A stretch of 64,000 nucleotides of DNA, from positions 152,713 through 216,712 of the IMG/VR virus record IMGVR_UViG_3300030102_006934; one strand, 5' to 3'. Of the stretch, positions 205-62,885 are shown piece after piece. A program made the translations under genes and the position numbers. The stretch is from a virus. A model generated the notes under the pieces. The model saw only the letters and a list, made by a program, of their open reading frames with translations. It made no database searches and was not told the origin of the DNA. The stretch's first letter is position 1; every line of letters starts with the position of its first letter.

Positions 205-726
205 ATGAATATCCGTAAAATCATAAAAGAAGAACTCCTTAAAGAGGTTGGTGGTTATGATGATTTAAGTGTTATGGGTCAACATGCTGGAGCTAGTATG
301 GGAGTATTAACTAGTAGTTACCAAATTTTAATAGATCTATTAACAGATATAGCAAACTCACTTTTAGATAGTGAAAAAGGTTATAGTAAATTCTCTTTAT
401 CTAATTCAGTTATAGGTGATTTAGACAAAGTTACATCTGTAGTGATTAGTGATACTGAAAAAATTTTACAGGATTTTACGGAAGACGATGTTATAAAAGA
501 AGGTAAAAGATTTATTGCCCACCTTAAATCATTAGTAAAAAGAATTAGGTTAATATCTAACATGGTTTCTACTTACACAAAATCTGAATACGAAGAAGAA
601 CTAAGAAAATTAGTGATGGAGTTTTTACCTAAAGCTAAAAAATATGGTGATACTTTGATAAAAAGTAATAACATGTTTAAAGGTAGATTTTCTAGAGCAA
701 CTGGAGGAAATACTTTTTTCAATTAA
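205..726 (+). CDS. Leader-tagged hypothetical protein, possible packaged protein
   Basis: This 173-residue protein begins MNIRKIIKEELLKEV, a short basic amphipathic leader with an I-K-E site at residues 7-9 that fits the (I/L)xE rule of T4-type prohead proteases. The rest is predicted helical and charged (about residues 40-150), with no motif I recognise. It starts one base after the stop of the previous gene. By analogy with T4 internal proteins, I infer that the leader is a capsid-targeting sequence; the body is of unknown function. Confidence 0.7.
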   Translation: MNIRKIIKEELLKEVGGYDDLSVMGQHAGASMGVLTSSYQILIDLLTDIANSLLDSEKGYSKFSLSNSVIGDLDKVTSVVISDTEKILQDFTEDDVIKEGKRFIAHLKSLVKRIRLISNMVSTYTKSEYEEELRKLVMEFLPKAKKYGDTLIKSNNMFKGRFSRATGGNTFFN

Positions 727-1083: not shown

Positions 1084-1488
1084 TTAATCCCAATATTCTT
1101 TAGGTAAACCAATCTTCTCAGCTAATTTCTTAAATAAACCTTCATGTTCTTCTGATTTGGGTAAGTCCTTACCAACTGCAGCATGTATAAGTTCATGGGT
1201 TATAACCCATTTTAAGTATTCTACATCCTCTAAAGCTTTGGATTTAATACCCATTTTACCATTCTCACCATTTTTTGGGTGGTTAAATCCCGCTATCTTA
1301 CCATCTTTTATAGTATCATCTATTTTAATATCTATTGGTGGTAGTACTAGTTTATCACCTGTGACATCTAGGTAAACCCTTCCCAAATCGTCCACAACAT
1401 TATTTTTTATTTTAGATATCAAATAATTTGGGTTTTCAACACTTGGTACATCAGCTTCTCTCAGTACTTTTTTAATTAAACTTCTCAT
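1084..1488 (-). CDS. Leader-tagged SprT-like zinc metallopeptidase
   Basis: This 134-residue protein starts at the ATG whose leader is MRSLIKKVLREADV; an upstream in-frame ATG (1506) would add only six residues and overlap the promoter-like element. The zinc motif THELIHAAVG lies at residues 97-106, and a possible third ligand, His115, sits in SEEHEGLFKKL. This is the usual layout of short SprT/WLM-type metallopeptidases. The leader contains L-R-E|A at residues 9-12, a good prohead-protease site. I infer that it may be packaged in the capsid and act in the infected cell or during head maturation. The substrate is unknown. Confidence 0.7.
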   Translation of the reverse strand: MRSLIKKVLREADVPSVENPNYLISKIKNNVVDDLGRVYLDVTGDKLVLPPIDIKIDDTIKDGKIAGFNHPKNGENGKMGIKSKALEDVEYLKWVITHELIHAAVGKDLPKSEEHEGLFKKLAEKIGLPKEYWD

Positions 1489-1625: not shown

Positions 1626-2864
1626 ATGGCAAATGAAAGAAAGTCTATCATCGATGAAGCCCTTTTAGAAAGCGCTCAAATTGAGAAAGCTTTTGAAGCC
1701 AACGCAAAAGAAATACTGACTCGTACAATGAGTTCAGAAATTGAAGAAATGGTAAAGGAATCTTTAGAAGGTTCGATTGGTTTAACGGAGGATGAAGATG
1801 AAGAGAAAGATGAGTTAGAGTTAGATCTAGAATTAGGTGACTCTGATGAAATGGATGCCAGCGGTGCTGGTGAAGAAGTTGACCTAGAAATGGGTGAACT
1901 AGAAATGGATGATGAACCAATGGATGGTGAAATCGAAATGGATGATGTTGAAAGTATTGACTTAACAACAACAGAAATGCCTGAAGTAATTAACGTATTC
2001 AAGAAAATGAGTGACGATGATGAAATAGAGGTTGTAACTGATGGTGGTAATGTTGAGATTAAAGACACAGAAACTGGTGCTGAGTACAGAATAGAACTTG
2101 GTGGTGAAGAAAGTGAAATGGAGGACATGGAAGCAGATATGGTTGACATGGAACCAGAAATGGGAGATATGGACCCTATGGAACTTGATAACGAAGATGA
2201 GTCTGAAGAAGAAGAAGTCGAATACCAAGTGGTACTAGATGATGAAGATGAAGATGATGAAGATGGAATGGAAGACGAAATGTCTGGAGGTGATTACATG
2301 GATGACATGGAAGAGGGTAAATCCCCAAGAACACTTTCTAAGGCAAGTAAGCAACCTAATAGAAAATCTGCTGATATCAATAGTAATCGTATGAAAATGG
2401 GTGAGTCTAAAAAACCAAAGTTCTTAAAATTAATTAACGAAAACAAAGATCTTAAAAATAAAGTAGGTTCTATCACTAGTGAAAATGAAACATTAAAAGA
2501 AGACTACAACAAAATGGTTGATGCTTTAAAACAATTTAGAGATAAACTTAATGAAGTAGCCGTTTTCAATAGTAATTTAACTTATTCAGTTAGATTGTTC
2601 ACAGAGAACACAACTACAAAAGAAGAAAAATTAGAAATAATCAAGAGATTTGATGACGTTAAAACTTTGAAGGAATCTAAAGCTACCTATAAAGGTTTAG
2701 TAAAAGAGATTTCTAAAAAAGAACCTATCAAAGAATCTGTTGAGGAAAAATTAAATGAAACTAAAACAAGTGGTTCATCAACAGAAATTAATGAATCACA
2801 AGTGTATGTTAATCCAGAGTTAGAAAAAATGAAGAAACTTTGGGATTACCAATATAAGCACTAA
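1626..2864 (+). CDS. Acidic prohead core/scaffold-like protein
   Basis: This 412-residue protein is immediately upstream of the capsid gene, where T4-like phages keep the core (gp22) gene. Its centre (about residues 55-225) is extremely rich in Asp, Glu and Met, followed by a basic hinge (about 232-262) and a coiled-coil segment with KLINENKDLKNKVGSITSEN near residue 265. The N-terminus MANERKSIIDEALLESAQIE carries I-D-E|A at 9-12 and L-L-E|S at 13-16, and more such sites occur later, as expected of a core protein cut up during head maturation. The role is inferred from position and composition, not from clear homology. Confidence 0.6.
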   Translation: MANERKSIIDEALLESAQIEKAFEANAKEILTRTMSSEIEEMVKESLEGSIGLTEDEDEEKDELELDLELGDSDEMDASGAGEEVDLEMGELEMDDEPMDGEIEMDDVESIDLTTTEMPEVINVFKKMSDDDEIEVVTDGGNVEIKDTETGAEYRIELGGEESEMEDMEADMVDMEPEMGDMDPMELDNEDESEEEEVEYQVVLDDEDEDDEDGMEDEMSGGDYMDDMEEGKSPRTLSKASKQPNRKSADINSNRMKMGESKKPKFLKLINENKDLKNKVGSITSENETLKEDYNKMVDALKQFRDKLNEVAVFNSNLTYSVRLFTENTTTKEEKLEIIKRFDDVKTLKESKATYKGLVKEISKKEPIKESVEEKLNETKTSGSSTEINESQVYVNPELEKMKKLWDYQYKH

Positions 2865-2891: not shown

Positions 2892-4694
2892 ATGGGATAT
2901 TTATTAAAATCAGGAGAAGTTGGTAACATCGGACTTAAGCACCAAAAAGCTGTTCGTGAAGCGACTGTCTCTAAATGGAATGACTTAGGGTTCTTAGAAG
3001 GACTTAATGGTCACACAAGAGAAAACATTGCTTTGTTATATGAAAACACTGCATCTTCTCTAATTAGCGAAACTACTGACGCGGGGAACTCTGGTTCTTT
3101 CGAAACTGTAGTTTTCCCAATCGTTAGAAGAGTATTTTCTAAATTATTAGCTAACGATATCGTATCTGTACAAGCTATGAACTTACCAATCGGTAAATTG
3201 TTCTACTTCGTACCTAAAACATCTGACAGAATTTTCGAAAATGGATGGCCAGCATCAGGTGGTACAGCAAAACATGGTGAACCAATCGTTACTACTTGTT
3301 TAACAGGTGGTGACTGTGACCCAACTACTTACTCTGAATGTGCTAAAAATCTATATGATAGATTCTACAATGACGGAATGTTTGACCAATCAAAAGGTAA
3401 AATTACTGTTGTTGCGACTAACGCTGACCCAGTTGTTTGGACGGCTTGTACTGACGGTCAAGCTGGTAATGAATTTACTGGTGGTGTTTCTGCATTTGCT
3501 GGTGACGGTTCGGTTAGAACTCAAATCCTTAAAATGTGTGAATTCAATGACGCTGGAGCTGGTAGATTAACTGGTCCTAACGGAAACGAAATGGATACTG
3601 AGGAATTCTTAGCATCTTTAATGGTTACTGTTGATGGTCCTATCGTTGATAAAGATAACCAAGTTATTTTTGAATCTGGTGACCAAGTACCAGTAAGAGT
3701 TGTTACTCAAAAATACGGAAGAGGTATCGTTGATTACGGTGATATCTGTGACGCTGATGGATGTATATACTTAGAGGCTGATTTAACTCACCCAGTATGT
3801 GCAACTTGTGAAAGTGGTACTTTAGATGGTTACATCGGAGCTACTTCTGGAACAACAGCTATCGTTCCTGGTGTTGCTTCAACTGACTTAGGTGGAACTA
3901 ACTTCGTAGTTACTTTCAGACAGTACGCAAACTTAGAACTTGAATCTCAAATGGGAGAAGTTTCTTTCGAATTAGAATCTGTAACTGTTTCTGTAACAGA
4001 AAGAAAACTAAGAGCTACTTGGACTCCTGAGTTAGCACAAGATGTATCAGCATTCCATAACATTGATGCTGAAGCTGAATTAACAGCATTATTATCTGAA
4101 CAAGTTGCGGCGGAAATTGACCGTGAAATCTTAAGAGACTTAAGAACAGGTGCGGCTTGGACATTAAGATGGGATTATGACGGATGGAAGAGATTACCTT
4201 CTGGTCAAGCTGCTTACACTCAAAAAGATTGGAACCAGACTTTGATTACGGCAATCAACCAAATTTCAGCACAAATCCATAAGTCTACTTTAAGAGGTGG
4301 GGCTAACTTTATCGTGGTTTCTTCTGAGGTATCAGCTATTTTTGATGACTTAGAGTACTTCCACGTATCTAACGCTTCTCCAGAACAAGATAACTATAAC
4401 ATGGGTATTGAGAGAGTAGGTTCTTTATCAGGTAGATATACTGTATATAGAGACCCATACGCTCCAGCTAACACCGTGTTACTTGGACATAAAGGTCAAT
4501 CATTATTGGATACTGGGTACATTTACGCACCTTACGTTCCATTACAATTGACACCTACAATGTATAACCCATTCAACTTCGTACCTGTTAAAGGTATCAT
4601 GACTCGTTACGCTAAGAAAATGGTTAATAACCGTTTCTACGGAACAATCAACGTTGATGGTATTCGTACATTTGATGTTAGAGAATTAAGATAA
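2892..4694 (+). CDS. Major capsid protein, T4 gp23-like
   Basis: This 600-residue protein has the gp23 signature FPIVRRVFSKLLANDIVSVQAM at about residues 75-96, then PIGKLFYF, and a C-terminal part ending in a pattern typical of gp23 (NRFYGTINVDGIRTFDVREL). T4 gp23 is cut at E65; here I-S-E60|T61 is the matching processing site, leaving a mature protein of about 540 residues. Compared with T4 (521 residues) there is extra sequence with several Cys residues near 140-160 and 285-310, perhaps a surface insertion. It lies 27 bases after the scaffold gene and is followed by a strong terminator. Confidence 0.93.
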   Translation: MGYLLKSGEVGNIGLKHQKAVREATVSKWNDLGFLEGLNGHTRENIALLYENTASSLISETTDAGNSGSFETVVFPIVRRVFSKLLANDIVSVQAMNLPIGKLFYFVPKTSDRIFENGWPASGGTAKHGEPIVTTCLTGGDCDPTTYSECAKNLYDRFYNDGMFDQSKGKITVVATNADPVVWTACTDGQAGNEFTGGVSAFAGDGSVRTQILKMCEFNDAGAGRLTGPNGNEMDTEEFLASLMVTVDGPIVDKDNQVIFESGDQVPVRVVTQKYGRGIVDYGDICDADGCIYLEADLTHPVCATCESGTLDGYIGATSGTTAIVPGVASTDLGGTNFVVTFRQYANLELESQMGEVSFELESVTVSVTERKLRATWTPELAQDVSAFHNIDAEAELTALLSEQVAAEIDREILRDLRTGAAWTLRWDYDGWKRLPSGQAAYTQKDWNQTLITAINQISAQIHKSTLRGGANFIVVSSEVSAIFDDLEYFHVSNASPEQDNYNMGIERVGSLSGRYTVYRDPYAPANTVLLGHKGQSLLDTGYIYAPYVPLQLTPTMYNPFNFVPVKGIMTRYAKKMVNNRFYGTINVDGIRTFDVRELR

Positions 4695-4972: not shown

Positions 4973-5713
4973 TTATTCCCTAACACCCCTTTTTTGAGCC
5001 TGTTCTTTATTTGTTAAACCACTCTCTAACCTTTTGTTAATAATATCCATAGCTTCACTAGGTAACATGGAGTAGACTTTCATGGCGTTACTAACTCCCA
5101 TTTGTGAATCTTTCACATCCCAAAGGGTAATCCCATCTGATTTCTTTAGGTCATTATGAAAGGCTATTTTAGCGAAGTCGTTGGTTCGAGATTCGGCGTC
5201 AGTGACTTTTTTATCAATTACAAAAACTAAAATACCATTATCAGTGTATTGTTTATAGTATTTACCGTAGTTATGGTCTTCACTAGAAACACACCATTTA
5301 GTCCCTTTACCATATAAGTTAGAACTTCTAACACTTAATGGGAATAAAACCAACCATCTATCATCTTCATATAGTACTTCTGTTTCTTTCTTTTTAACTT
5401 CAGAACGTGTAATTTTTTCTTTAGCTACTTTAACAGCGTTGATAATATCTTGATTGGATTCGTAGGAGTAAATATCTTTATTATCTAACAAATTTCTTTC
5501 AGATAAATCTTCGAAGTCTTTGATTACCTCAAACATTTCTTTAAAAGTTTCGTTTTTAAGTTCAGTATTAATCCACTTGACCCAATCTGAGGTACACTTT
5601 ATCATAAAGGGTAGGTACTTATTTGTTTTAGTTGGGTCCATCTCCGCTAGAACACCAATAACATCAATAAGGTAGGTTGGGTTTTTTTCTTTTAGTTCCT
5701 TAATTTTTGCCAT
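4973..5713 (-). CDS. Hypothetical protein with GKGTKWCVSS motif
   Basis: I start this 246-residue protein at the ATG at 5713 (MAKIKELKEKNPTYLID), nine residues inside the longest frame, because the host-like promoter ends about 30 bases upstream of it. The second half holds WLVLFPLS, then GKGTKWCVSS, ILVFVIDK, AKIAFHND and ITLWDVKD. This series of motifs is shared by many large-phage proteins of unknown function. The first half is helical. There is no leader of the packaged type. The promoter suggests early expression, unlike its neighbours. Confidence 0.7.
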   Translation of the reverse strand: MAKIKELKEKNPTYLIDVIGVLAEMDPTKTNKYLPFMIKCTSDWVKWINTELKNETFKEMFEVIKDFEDLSERNLLDNKDIYSYESNQDIINAVKVAKEKITRSEVKKKETEVLYEDDRWLVLFPLSVRSSNLYGKGTKWCVSSEDHNYGKYYKQYTDNGILVFVIDKKVTDAESRTNDFAKIAFHNDLKKSDGITLWDVKDSQMGVSNAMKVYSMLPSEAMDIINKRLESGLTNKEQAQKRGVRE

Positions 5714-5742
5714 TTTTTTATCTTTTTTGATTATTAACAATA

Positions 5743-5830: not shown

Positions 5831-6238
5831 ATGAAAAAAGTAATAAAAATAAACGAGTCTCAATTAGAGTACCTAGTTAAGAAAGTTATAAAAGAAGAAG
5901 AAAAAGAAACTAAAAAAACTACAGTAACTAAACATCCAGCTTATCCAGCCGTGGATAAATTAGAAAGAGCTTTAGAAGATTTAAAGATGGAGTTTAAAGA
6001 TAGTATTGCTAATGCAGTATCTGGTTCTGATGGTTATCACAGTGAAATAGATAAGTTTTCTGAAGATTTTGGTAAATTTATTACTAAGGTTTCTAAAATG
6101 AAAAGTAAAATCAATGATTATCAAATAGCGAATAAAGATAAGGAGGTGGCTGAAGCTAAGAAACGGAAAGAAAAACAGCGTCAGTACCAAAATTATATGA
6201 GAGAAAAGGCTAGAAATGAAGGTCGTAACTATTATTAA
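5831..6238 (+). CDS. Leader-tagged coiled-coil protein, possible packaged protein
   Basis: This 135-residue protein opens with MKKVIKINESQLEYLVKKV, a leader of the (I/V)-(T/N)-E-x-Q-L kind also seen at 61511, 62301 and 63713. Possible processing sites are I-N-E|S (7-10) and I-K-E (20-22). The remainder is a lysine- and glutamate-rich helix, probably coiled coil, with a basic C-terminus (EAKKRKEKQRQYQNYMREKA). No enzyme motif is visible. A DNA-associated internal head protein is a reasonable guess. Confidence 0.7.
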   Translation: MKKVIKINESQLEYLVKKVIKEEEKETKKTTVTKHPAYPAVDKLERALEDLKMEFKDSIANAVSGSDGYHSEIDKFSEDFGKFITKVSKMKSKINDYQIANKDKEVAEAKKRKEKQRQYQNYMREKARNEGRNYY

Positions 6239-6249
6239 AATAAATTGTT

Positions 6250-6789
6250 ATGAGAAGATTTGACAAAAGAAATATTATTACAGAAGCTAATCAAAGATTA
6301 GAAAGAGAATACATAAAAAGTAAAACACTTATAAAAGAAGATATTTTAGAATTAAAACAAATGTCTAAACAAATCTATTCTTACCTAAAAAAGAAAGGTT
6401 ACGAGGTTAAAATGAAAACTGAAAAAGGTGAGTCTAGAAAGTCTTTTGATACTAATTTAGATTTAAATGATACTATTCAGTTAGTGATACAAGAAGGAAC
6501 TGAAGTAGTCATGATAGCTTTACCAGTTCGTGCTGTCGTTAAGAAGTTAACCGGTGATAAGGACCTTAATTCAAGTACGGAAGCTGATAAATACGGTAAA
6601 GATTTTCAAGATTGGTATGTAAATAAAGAGGTGACTAACTACGTTGATAAATTAGGTGATGAATTAGTTTCACAGTTAAAATCTAAATACCCAACTATGA
6701 GACATGGTTTTGATAAAGATGATTCTAGAATGTTTTATTTTATGAGATTTGGTTACGGTAGAAATAAAAAGGGTGGTGATATAAAATAA
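6250..6789 (+). CDS. Leader-tagged hypothetical protein (MRRxDKR leader)
   Basis: This 179-residue protein has the leader MRRFDKRNIITEANQRLERE, closely matching those at 7079 and 7543; I-T-E12|A is the predicted processing site. The body has a short hydrophobic strand (VVMIALPVRAVVKKL, about residues 90-104) but no recognised domain. It sits 11 bases after the previous gene. The leader is better conserved than the body, which fits a shared targeting role. Confidence 0.7.
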   Translation: MRRFDKRNIITEANQRLEREYIKSKTLIKEDILELKQMSKQIYSYLKKKGYEVKMKTEKGESRKSFDTNLDLNDTIQLVIQEGTEVVMIALPVRAVVKKLTGDKDLNSSTEADKYGKDFQDWYVNKEVTNYVDKLGDELVSQLKSKYPTMRHGFDKDDSRMFYFMRFGYGRNKKGGDIK

Positions 6790-6790
6790 A

Positions 6791-7069
6791 GTGAGAAACT
6801 TAATCCGTAAAATATTAAAAGAAGAATCAGATAAGCAAACTGATTTAGCCAACTCTAATAGTACTGAACGTAATATATGTGATGATTTTAGTGTTGATAC
6901 TTACGAGGAATTGATTGATTTGATTAATAAAGCACACGTCTCAAAAGAAGATGACCCAAAAATAGAAAAATTACTAATTCAGTTGAAGAAGGATAATGAC
7001 CGATTGGGTAATGATTTGGATAACTTAAACACCTATCAACATAAGATAGCTAATTTACTGTGTAAATAA
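6791..7069 (+). CDS. Small leader-tagged protein with GTG start
   Basis: This 92-residue protein starts with GTG one base after the previous stop. The leader MRNLIRKILKEES has L-K-E at 9-11, the same type as at 205 and 1488. The body is acidic and helical with DDFSVDTYEELIDLINKAH and a C-terminal Cys. The GTG is supported by the leader match and the tight spacing. Function is unknown. Confidence 0.65.
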   Translation: MRNLIRKILKEESDKQTDLANSNSTERNICDDFSVDTYEELIDLINKAHVSKEDDPKIEKLLIQLKKDNDRLGNDLDNLNTYQHKIANLLCK

Positions 7070-7078
7070 AAAATAAAA

Positions 7079-7537
7079 ATGAGAAGACAGGATAAAAGAA
7101 TGGTTATTAAGGAAGCTAATCAAAGATTAGAATTAAACCATGTTTTAAAAACAAAACATTTCTTAACAGAAGAAGAAATACAAAATTTAGATGAGGGTAT
7201 CAAAGATTGGATAGCTAAAGGTTTAATAGCCATTACATTATTGGGTGGGGGTATGAAATTATACCACATGGACCAACAAGCAGCACAAGATAAACATGAT
7301 AGGACTGAGTATTATGAAAAAGCTTTAAAAGACCAAGTGACTAAAACAGAGACTAGGGACTTAGCTAAGTTAGGTTTAGAGATAAATAAAGAAACTAATA
7401 AAGTTAAATTAGCTTACGGTACTTCATCCGAAGATGCTGATGGATTGTTTAAGTCTTACGCTGAGTCTTACATGAAACAACACCCACATGAATTTGGTAT
7501 TGGTACTGACGGTACTATCTATTGGTTACAAAAGTAA
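7079..7537 (+). CDS. Leader-tagged protein with one membrane-type segment
   Basis: This 152-residue protein has leader MRRQDKRMVIKEANQRLE with I-K-E12|A. A hydrophobic segment GLIAITLLGGGMKLY lies near residues 47-62, followed by a long charged helix and a C-terminal part rich in aromatic residues. It might sit in the membrane after ejection. No family is recognised. Confidence 0.65.
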   Translation: MRRQDKRMVIKEANQRLELNHVLKTKHFLTEEEIQNLDEGIKDWIAKGLIAITLLGGGMKLYHMDQQAAQDKHDRTEYYEKALKDQVTKTETRDLAKLGLEINKETNKVKLAYGTSSEDADGLFKSYAESYMKQHPHEFGIGTDGTIYWLQK

Positions 7538-7542
7538 TTGAC

Positions 7543-8529
7543 ATGAGAAGGTATGATAAGCGAAGGAATATTATGGAATCTAACTTAAGGTTAGAGAGGG
7601 AATTTATTGCCAGTAAATCTATAACAGTAAATGATTTTATTTTAGAAAATATATCCGAAAGTCAATATATTTCTATGTTAAAAGAATCATGTGATGAGCT
7701 AGGGATAGAATACGATAATCAACTTAATGAAGAAAGGGGTTTAATAACTGAAGAAGGCTTTACTTTAATGGCAATAAGTGCGGCGTTAGCGTCTGGTAAA
7801 TTGTTCGATTTAATTGGTTCATTTTTTAGAAAAGCTTGGAATTTTATTAGTAAACAAATAGCTAAAAAAAGTAAAACATGCAAAGAGGTATCAAAGGATG
7901 AAAGAGGTAAGTGTGCTGAAGCTTTGTTAGCTTCAGGTAAAGGCCCTAAAATTTTAGGTAAGACTTGGTTTGAAAAGGCTGGTGAGTGGATACATGAAAA
8001 TATAATAATGACTTTATTTAGGGTTGTCGCTATTGTTTTGTTAGATACCGCACAAGGGATTTTTAGTTCTGGTAAAAAATCTGATGAAGTACAACAAGAC
8101 TATTACGGTGGGCCGAAAGGTACCTTTATTGAGGGTGGTAAGTGGGTTGATGATGATAAATTAGTCGATATGGTTGCAAATACTTTATTTTATGCAACAA
8201 TTACTATTGTTGGTTATTTTGGCTTAAAAGAACTATATGCTCTTGGAAAGGATGGTATTGCCACTTTTACTGGTGTAGTAGAGATTGTTACTTCGGTAAC
8301 TAAAGGTTATGAATTAATATTACTAGTTATAGCAACAGTAGTAATAAAAAGAGGTTTAGTTAAGTCTTCAGACACTTCTGGTGTTGCTCATACATTGGGT
8401 GAGTGTTTAGAGGGTGGTGGTAAAATAGGTAAAATATTTAAACAGGTAAAAAAGATGAAAAAGGATGATAGTTATAGTCAGGAGGTTCTAGCTTGTTTAA
8501 ATAAAAGTTTAGAATTAGCTCATCATTAA
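7543..8529 (+). CDS. Leader-tagged multi-pass membrane protein
   Basis: I start at the ATG of MRRYDKRRNIMESNLRLERE (7543); a start seven codons upstream would overlap the previous gene and break the leader match. Predicted processing site I-M-E12|S. The 328-residue body has hydrophobic stretches near residues 75-95, 155-170, 210-230 and 245-275. A packaged membrane protein could act in DNA entry or block superinfection, but nothing here proves this. Confidence 0.65.
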   Translation: MRRYDKRRNIMESNLRLEREFIASKSITVNDFILENISESQYISMLKESCDELGIEYDNQLNEERGLITEEGFTLMAISAALASGKLFDLIGSFFRKAWNFISKQIAKKSKTCKEVSKDERGKCAEALLASGKGPKILGKTWFEKAGEWIHENIIMTLFRVVAIVLLDTAQGIFSSGKKSDEVQQDYYGGPKGTFIEGGKWVDDDKLVDMVANTLFYATITIVGYFGLKELYALGKDGIATFTGVVEIVTSVTKGYELILLVIATVVIKRGLVKSSDTSGVAHTLGECLEGGGKIGKIFKQVKKMKKDDSYSQEVLACLNKSLELAHH

Positions 8530-25073: not shown

Positions 25074-25564
25074 TTTTTAACTTCCATTATATTGATAGGT
25101 TCTTCACAATAAACAGATAGATGACAAGCGGCTTTTATTGACTCTTTAACGGAGTTACCTAAATAAAGTGCTGCTAATGAAAAATCCATTCCTGCTCCAA
25201 TGGCGGTATAATCTGTTATTTCTTTAACAAAAAATCCCTCAACTAAGAAGGCTTTCTTTTCTAAAACTAAAACATACTCATTCCTTAATTTACTTTCATC
25301 TGTTTTGTTCTTCATCCATTCTTGGAACTCGGACATAAATTCTATTAAAGCCTCAACAGAAGCCTCTCTAGGTTTACGTGTTTTACAAAACATAAGAAAT
25401 AAACCACCTTCTTGTGCATCACCCACATCACCGATTATAATATCATTTACCTTATTTAATTTAGCAAATTTATCTTTTTCTTGTGTGGTACCATGGGATA
25501 CTAATATACTATCAGCTCCAATGGTTATTTTTTTATCCGTTACTTTAATTGCTACAACACTCAT
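25070..25564 (-). CDS. HslV/proteasome-like Ntn hydrolase with Ser in place of Thr1
   Basis: This 164-residue protein aligns by eye with HslV: VVAIKVTDKKITIGADS at the start, KLNKVNDIIIGDVGDA, and AIGAGMDFSLAALYLG with a C-terminal helix before PINIMEV. In HslV the Thr after Met1 is the nucleophile; here that residue is Ser2. Asp18 and Lys32 fall near the positions of Asp17 and Lys33 of HslV. It could be a virus-coded self-compartmentalising peptidase or an inactive relative. No HslU ATPase is in the window. It is coupled to dut upstream. Confidence 0.65.
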   Translation of the reverse strand: MSVVAIKVTDKKITIGADSILVSHGTTQEKDKFAKLNKVNDIIIGDVGDAQEGGLFLMFCKTRKPREASVEALIEFMSEFQEWMKNKTDESKLRNEYVLVLEKKAFLVEGFFVKEITDYTAIGAGMDFSLAALYLGNSVKESIKAACHLSVYCEEPINIMEVKK

Positions 25565-61510: not shown

Positions 61511-62293
61511 ATGTCAAAAATTGTAACAAAAAAACAACTAGACTTAGTTATGGAAAATACCATGAGTGAAATGAATAATGTGGTAGAGTCTAAAGAAGAA
61601 ATGAAAATCACCAAAGATCAAATGGATGAACTACATAAAGAAGGTCATTGTATGTGTGGTGATAAGTGTTTAGTATACACCGAAGATATTAAAGGTGATG
61701 ATAAAAAAATGACTGAACTATTAGAAAAATTAGCTTCAGAGAAAATGGACTGTGTCGTTGTTTCTAAAGAACAAATGGATATGTTACATAAAGATGGTAA
61801 ATGTGATTGTAACAATAATGTTACCCTTTCTTACGAAGATGAGATGAAGGAAGGTGATTATATGAACGATATGAGTGACCATATGGGTGATGATATGAAG
61901 TCTGAAGGCGACCATATGGATGACCATATGACCGAAGAAATGTGTAACGAATGTGGTGGTACTATGAAAGAAGGAATTTGTGAAGGTTGTGGTAGTATGA
62001 AAGAAGGAGATGTGGATGAAAATTTTGTTTTAGCCGCTGACGAAGCTAAAGACAAGGGAGATGATGAATTTGAATATCCTAAAGGTAGTGGTAAGATGCA
62101 TCCCGTAACAATTAAAGCCGATATAAAAAATGAAGAAAAAGAAGTAACTGAAATTACTGTGGGTGAAAAAAAATATAAAGTTGTGGAAGAGTCAGTAAAT
62201 AAATTAACTGAAGCTTTATCTAACACAACTAATAAAGAAATTATAAAAGAAGATATGGATTTCTTTAATAAAATGGTAAATTATAAAAAATAA
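61511..62293 (+). CDS. Leader-tagged Cys/Met/acid-rich protein with duplicated module
   Basis: The 260-residue protein has leader MSKIVTKKQLDLVMENTMSE (V-M-E15|N). A module of about 30 residues is duplicated: ITKDQMDELHKEGHCMCGDK at 33-52 and VSKEQMDMLHKDGKCDCNNN at 84-103. Next come a Met/Asp/His-rich stretch (about 110-142) and CNECGGTMKEGICEGCG (145-161), a small zinc-ribbon-like site. The C-terminal part is acidic. It may bind metal in the capsid or during ejection. No homolog is known to me. Confidence 0.65.
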   Translation: MSKIVTKKQLDLVMENTMSEMNNVVESKEEMKITKDQMDELHKEGHCMCGDKCLVYTEDIKGDDKKMTELLEKLASEKMDCVVVSKEQMDMLHKDGKCDCNNNVTLSYEDEMKEGDYMNDMSDHMGDDMKSEGDHMDDHMTEEMCNECGGTMKEGICEGCGSMKEGDVDENFVLAADEAKDKGDDEFEYPKGSGKMHPVTIKADIKNEEKEVTEITVGEKKYKVVEESVNKLTEALSNTTNKEIIKEDMDFFNKMVNYKK

Positions 62294-62300
62294 TATTAAA

Positions 62301-62885
62301 ATGAAAAGAAGGTATAAAGTAACAAAAGAACAATTAGAGATGGTAGTTGAGTCTCTAGTATCTGACAATTCTTTAGTGGAAAACAAAGAAGGTGTTTTGG
62401 AAGAAGGTATTTTTGACAGACTTAGAATGAAATTTAAAGCTAAAGTAGAAGCATTTTTAGATAAATTAAGTCAATCTGACGACCCAGAAGTACAAGATGC
62501 TTTAGCTACTGTTAAAGCAACAGCTTCTAAAGTAGATGCAGAAGATGTACCTACTGAAGAAATAGAGGCCAATAATGAAGTTATGGAAGCCATTTTAAGT
62601 ATGGGTAACTTAATTAACGAATCTGTAAAAGGTAAAATGAGTAAGGTGGATAGAGCTATCAATAGAGTTAAAGAGATTGGTGGATGGGGTACTGCTGGTG
62701 CAGCCTTTGTAACTGCGGTAGGTGTTTTACTTAAAGCGGCTATAGGAGCAGGTATGTATACACTTGGTTTACCAGTTGGTTTAGTGGTTATGATAATGTT
62801 AGCTATATTAGTACCTGGGGCTGTTATAGGTGGTTCAGCTACTAATAAAAGAACAAGAGATAAAACTGGTGATATTAGGTATTAA
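62301..62885 (+). CDS. Leader-tagged membrane protein
   Basis: This 194-residue protein has leader MKRRYKVTKEQLEMVVESLV (V-V-E17|S), a charged helical middle and two hydrophobic segments (GTAGAAFVTAVGVLLKAAIG and VGLVVMIMLAILVPGAVIGG, about residues 131-180), then a basic tail. Its leader is like that of the previous gene, eight bases upstream. It may enter the host membrane on ejection. Confidence 0.65.
   Translation: MKRRYKVTKEQLEMVVESLVSDNSLVENKEGVLEEGIFDRLRMKFKAKVEAFLDKLSQSDDPEVQDALATVKATASKVDAEDVPTEEIEANNEVMEAILSMGNLINESVKGKMSKVDRAINRVKEIGGWGTAGAAFVTAVGVLLKAAIGAGMYTLGLPVGLVVMIMLAILVPGAVIGGSATNKRTRDKTGDIRY

Follow-up and report, generated by a model that had tools for sequence, protein, structure and literature searches.

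Three adjacent genes of a far-T4-like phage begin with the same type of N-terminal leader (leader A), behind which lie proteins that are otherwise unrelated. The genes start at positions 6250, 7079 and 7543 of the window, which is the whole 64,000-nt stretch analysed here and corresponds to bases 152713-216712 of a 380,343-base viral record (G000). Leader A also precedes unrelated bodies in other viral contigs, is exchanged with other leaders on the same bodies, and in one near relative has been copied as DNA separately from the body. The phage encodes a gp23 capsid protein together with a prohead protease of the gp21 family, and we consider it very probable that leader A is a capsid-targeting sequence of the T4 kind, which would be removed by the prohead protease, with the cargo being ejected together with the DNA. 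The features are listed below, with arrows at predicted cut sites.

Record 151810-152367, just outside the window and directly upstream of it: S77 (gp21-family) prohead protease (PF03420, E 4.5e-29)
205..237, plus strand: leader B-like start (MNIRKIIKEEL) of a 173-aa protein, next to the head genes
1456..1488, minus strand: leader B (MRSLIKKVLRE↓A) on a SprT-like metalloprotease (ORF 1084-1506)
1626..2864, plus strand: acidic 412-aa protein directly 5' of the capsid gene, a probable scaffold judging from position and composition
2892..4694, plus strand: gp23-family major capsid protein, with maturation predicted at L-I-S-E60↓T61
5831..5899, plus strand: leader C-like N-terminus (MKKVIKINESQLEYLVKKVIKEE) of a 135-aa protein, adjoining the leader A genes
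6250..6339, plus strand: leader A copy 1, codons 1-30 (MRRFDKRNIITEANQRLEREYIKSKTLIKE); the alignment with 54 distinct leaders predicts a cut after Glu30 (I-K-E↓D)
6340..6789, plus strand: body 1, the remainder of the 179-aa protein, which matches no known family; its orthologs in L075 and L042 have the same leader
6791..6823, plus strand: leader B (MRNLIRKILKE) of a 92-aa protein
6824..7069, plus strand: body of the 92-aa protein; the L048 homolog carries leader A, not B
7079..7171, plus strand: leader A copy 2, codons 1-31, ending F-L-T-E↓E, from the alignment with the distinct leaders
7172..7537, plus strand: body 2, the remainder of the 152-aa protein; in L025-L027 its homologs are preceded by leader D and flanked by prohead protease and scaffold genes
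7543..7647, plus strand: leader A copy 3, conserved to residue 25; the next hydrophobic-x-Glu is the I-L-E at residue 35
7648..8529, plus strand: body 3, the remainder of the 328-aa protein, containing hydrophobic stretches; the ortholog in L054 has the same leader

Extent of leader A and the bodies behind it

The N-termini of ORFs 6250 (179 aa; MRRFDKRNIITEANQRLE), 7079 (152 aa; MRRQDKRMVIKEANQRLE) and 7543 (328 aa; MRRYDKRRNIMESNLRLE; its ATG lies inside a longer TTG-started ORF at 7522) share the MRRxDKR start given in a preliminary description of this DNA. That description called the leaders near-identical; the similarity is clear (z = 8 to 14 over shuffles for the three window proteins), but any two of them agree at just 12-17 of their first 30 positions. 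The record holds five copies rather than three, all within its first 162 kb, the additional ones being at record 71859 (252 aa, AAA_33/polynucleotide-kinase-like) and 72614 (276 aa, with a body that has no assigned family). Starts of the form M[RK][RK]x[DE][KR][RKS] are found in 5 of 439 selected record genes, against 0.075 expected from shuffled N-termini, and 290 N-terminal pairs genome-wide score at least 45, against 25 with shuffled N-termini. The shared start is thus far beyond chance.

Further carriers were sought in viral contigs with a loose DNA pattern over residues 1-18, and positions 1-18 are thereby biased. The pattern matched 57 contig stretches, with all 66 matches being open reading frames, and gave 58 unique proteins in 41 unrelated body clusters; several contigs hold 2-5 copies on different bodies. 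Leader A was not found in 50,697 cultured-phage records. The 54 distinct leaders have the consensus MRRFDKKxNIxKANLLAEQRYLxSKGLIxE, in which R20, L22, K25, hydrophobic 28 and E30 are 80-89% conserved, even though the pattern left positions 19-30 free. Specifically, Glu30 occurs in 89% and a hydrophobic residue 28 in 82%, neither of which the pattern required (carriers without Glu30 include L039, L046 and L079), and conservation collapses after Glu30. Glu12, after which the preliminary description placed the cut in every case, is found in just 22% of these leaders, Lys taking its place in 67%, and is missing from the two additional copies of the record; we therefore reject a cut at that position. 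Because conservation extends to Glu30 and then collapses, and Glu12 is rare, the module spans about 30 residues rather than 12 or 18, and the same alignment leaves hydrophobic-x-Glu30 as the sole widely kept protease-like site, at the end of the leader. With exceptions, this end matches the prohead protease consensus (hydrophobic-x-Glu). The 7079 body has a second conserved candidate site, (L or I)-D-E↓G, at residues 37-40.

Behind the leader, the three window proteins are dissimilar. From residue 31 on, their bodies score z = -1.2 to 0.1 against shuffles, and profile-profile probabilities among the three body families are 0.1-0.5%, so that the homology across bodies that would have reduced the leader to ordinary paralogy is absent. 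One apparent resemblance, between the 6250 body and a 165-aa protein of L020 (z 3.8; single-pair BLAST E 6e-4), disappeared in profile comparison (probability 1.2%). The idea that the leader is more strongly conserved than its cargo holds between paralogs, but among orthologs the difference goes either way: relative to the 6250 protein, the L075 ortholog has 67% identity in the leader and 87% in the body, and the L042 ortholog 60% and 52%, respectively. The AlphaFold model of the 7079 family is mediocre (pLDDT 66.6) and gave no significant fold match. Protein-based scans found no homolog of the 328-aa protein, for which L054 surfaced solely through the leader pattern.

Where bodies belong to known families, the domains begin right after the leader, at residues 29-41 for the polynucleotide-kinase-like (PNK-like) kinase and at residue 29 for the Dps-like protein, and so both bodies are complete without it. 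The latter example (L070:3350-3811, plus strand) is a Dps/ferritin-like protein (phrog_858, E 7.4e-20; DUF5856), possibly a DNA-protecting cargo. Another leader A protein (L052:6914-7576, minus strand) may be an ADP-ribosyltransferase, an assignment that rests on a sub-threshold Pfam match (ART-PolyVal, E 4.9e-5), the model having a pLDDT of 33; it has a relative without leader A in L071. This ART-like cargo is reminiscent of T4 Alt. The injected head proteins of T4 include anti-restriction factors and an ADP-ribosyltransferase.

Exchange and copying of leaders

The suggestion that a modular leader is fused to different bodies is borne out both by the 41 body clusters and by two window bodies that have exchanged leaders between phages. 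The 7079 body occurs in another phage behind a different leader (MNKEFLHMQKLAGLITE); its L025-L027 homologs (46-49% identity) have MNKEFLHMQKLAGLITES in place of leader A, and the homolog gene has the protease gene on one side and the scaffold/capsid genes on the other. The 92-aa product of the gene at 6791 has leader B in the window phage and leader A in L048 (38% identity, E 1.7e-9). These A-D and A-B exchanges on the same bodies indicate that the leaders concerned are equivalent in function, and leaders A, B and D all terminate in hydrophobic-x-Glu.

Leader A is one of several such families. Leader B (MKNLIKKILKE) is found on 62 unique proteins in 29 body clusters, single members of which match phage lysozyme, PAP2, GP88, SprT and L5 gp82, and roughly 25-35 proteins of the window's record have leader B-like starts, many followed by DFDWV. 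Leader D (MQKLAGLITE; MNKEFLKMQKLAGLITE) is found on at least 53 unique proteins in at least 34 body clusters. In the cultured Flavobacterium phage immuto_3-5A, leader D stands on two proteins (at 25470 and 111631), and four unrelated proteins (at 1803, 103762, 117587 and 118588) begin with a further leader, E (MENFDLKKFLVENKLTxNSKLLxE); leaders C and E probably do the same job as A, B and D.

Related N-termini are seen elsewhere in the record. Dozens of its proteins share an MxxxxIxKEE...DFDWVxD N-terminus on otherwise different bodies (e.g., at 93203, 108340, 113578, 217282, 328534, 345456 and 370527). Two adjacent plus-strand proteins of the window (61511-62290 and 62301-62882) have leader C-like starts ((I/V)TKxQLxxV(M/V)E); the second continues with VLEEGIFDRL, which resembles NEGIFDRF in the L020 165-aa protein and DEGIKDWI in the 7079 protein.

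How a leader spreads can be seen in L020, a near relative with a 97% identical capsid protein. Its stretch lacks the 6250 and 7543 genes and has a new 165-aa gene adjoining the 7079 ortholog; these two neighbors share 107 identical nucleotides, from 3 nt before the ATG to codon 35, and nothing else. Such an identical block is what one would expect if the leader acted at the nucleic-acid level, as a promoter, translation enhancer or recombination site, and were translated by chance. We regard this as highly improbable since older pairs use synonymous codons at the rate that codon usage predicts (9 of 17 identical residues for 6250 vs 7543), which indicates that selection acts on the protein, and since the DNA upstream of the leaders is not conserved. 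Taken together, the leader-only identity in L020 and the synonymous changes indicate that the leader is passed on as DNA and retained because of the protein sequence it encodes. The exchanges and the leader-only duplication suggest how new cargo may be recruited.

The same observations bear on simple paralogy, in which a single ancestral gene was duplicated and the bodies diverged past recognition while the N-terminus was retained. The genes are indeed adjacent, and the 6250 and 7079 leaders use the same codon at 13 of 14 identical residues. Against this, BLAST, shuffles and profile comparison find no similarity between the bodies, different known families are represented among the bodies (AAA_33/PNK-like kinase, Dps-like and, weakly, ART), homologs of two window bodies bear other leaders, and the L020 leader was copied alone. 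Paralogy is extremely improbable, and we reject it on the basis of the body shuffles and profile comparisons.

Head genes and proposed capsid targeting

The gp23 homolog of the window phage is distant from that of T4 and nearest to the RM378/immuto type, as expected of a far-T4 phage; its best matches are LR756508 (a 484-kb phage), Microcystis phage Mel-JY01, Flavobacterium phage immuto and RM378. All six far-T4 capsid proteins compared have a conserved L-[ILV]-x-E↓[AT]-type motif just before the aligned shell domain, the position at which T4 gp23 undergoes maturation, after its residue 65. After the capsid cluster come, in order, the genes at 5831 (leader C), 6250 (A), 6791 (B), 7079 (A) and 7543 (A), and in three contigs a 232-aa leader A gene is directly 3' of gp23. 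Both gp23 and S77 are present in four of six other leader-bearing contigs above 120 kb, and neither was found in the leader-carrying contigs G016 and G025 (187-194 kb), which may be incomplete or use other genes. Across 39 searched records, many of whose contigs are fragments, S77 was found in 16 and gp23 in 19; carriers with neither gene include short fragments.

Based on these genes, we propose that the leader would bind to the scaffold core of the assembling head and take whatever body follows into the prohead, where the S77 protease would cut after Glu30 of the hydrophobic-x-Glu site; the freed bodies would remain in the head and be ejected with the DNA. New bodies would acquire the leader by DNA copying or recombination, and the equivalent families (A, B, D and probably C and E), exchanged on the same bodies, would do the same job. 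Capsid entry, cleavage, ejection and an anti-host function of the cargo are all inferred. A point on the other side is that the lysozyme, PAP2 and SprT bodies behind leader B are not classic internal head proteins. The leader might instead be a localisation tag for a site other than the capsid interior (host membrane, replication compartment or tail), as the hydrophobic stretches of the 7543 body could suggest. This is unlikely, given that the leader ends in the type of motif found at the capsid protein's own maturation site, that the 7079 homologs and the 232-aa gene are in a head-gene context, and that leader A is functionally equivalent to leader D, which is found in such a context.

Beyond capsid targeting itself, we are evenly divided on a broader proposal, namely that far-T4 phages run an open-ended protein delivery system, in which several leader families that can replace one another send dozens to hundreds of unrelated cargos to the head (tens of them in one 380-kb record) and cargo is recruited by copying the leader DNA only. 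If capsid targeting is true, the 30-residue motif predicts which hypothetical proteins of large uncultivated phages enter the host inside the virion. It would also be a sequence handle for injected anti-defence proteins in environmental phages, and the leaders would be new modular tags to load proteins into phage heads.

Two features of the record may be mentioned here. Regions 1-83 kb and 226-308 kb of G000, both outside the window, share ~40 gene pairs in near-identical order (~25-72% identity), which points either to a block duplicated long ago or to two related phages joined in one record; the 380-kb record may thus be composite, and gp23 and S77 are single-copy in it. A 255-aa protein of the window (4973-5740, minus strand; phrog_28193/17056) has at least five distant paralogs in the record (125380, 217815, 325102, 343991 and 369117; 28-33% identity), several of which have leader-like starts.

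Comparison with known systems

The internal proteins of T4, which have only a leader in common, are the direct precedent. Their N-terminal propeptides of 10-19 residues lead them into the scaffold core and are removed by gp21, after which the proteins are injected (PMC9026906, PMC9958956). The T4 leader alone is enough to bring foreign proteins into the head, and it is processed in a manner dependent on its positions 8 and 10 (PMC9026906); Ip1-3 share only the leader and inhibit different restriction enzymes (PMC12373910). Like the T4 capsid-targeting sequence (CTS; IPI-III and Alt, gp21-processed), leader A is a short N-terminal sequence on otherwise unrelated proteins, with a hydrophobic-x-Glu cut site (predicted here), a gp21-family protease and gp23 in the phage, and variable gene content around the leader genes. 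Unlike it, leader A is ~30 residues long, and its sequence is apparently unrelated; compared by eye, only the I-x-E end is common to the two, and therefore we do not claim common descent of the leader itself. In addition, there are at least 41 body clusters here, as opposed to about ten reported Ips in T4, several leader families are exchanged on the same bodies, and packaging and cleavage, which are demonstrated in T4, are here predicted. What is new is thus the different leader, the several equivalent families and the larger cargo range, which includes polynucleotide-kinase-like and Dps-like proteins. Searches of open-licence papers turned up no account of these leaders for far-T4 phages.

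Two other systems have partial similarity. About 30 N-terminal residues of P1 DarB, a length similar to that of leader A, suffice for capsid entry of a reporter (PMC9024508); this signal is known for one P1 protein, in a different phage lineage. In phiKZ/SPN3US, the prohead protease cleaves x-x-E motifs behind the Glu, and gp53 and gp54, which are true paralogs, have an identical 15-residue N-terminus (PMC5694885, PMC10052503). These head propeptides resemble leader A in the x-x-E site (predicted here) and in an N-terminus common to two proteins, but they differ from it in the A-x-E motif, in being mostly long, and in the paralogy of gp53 and gp54.
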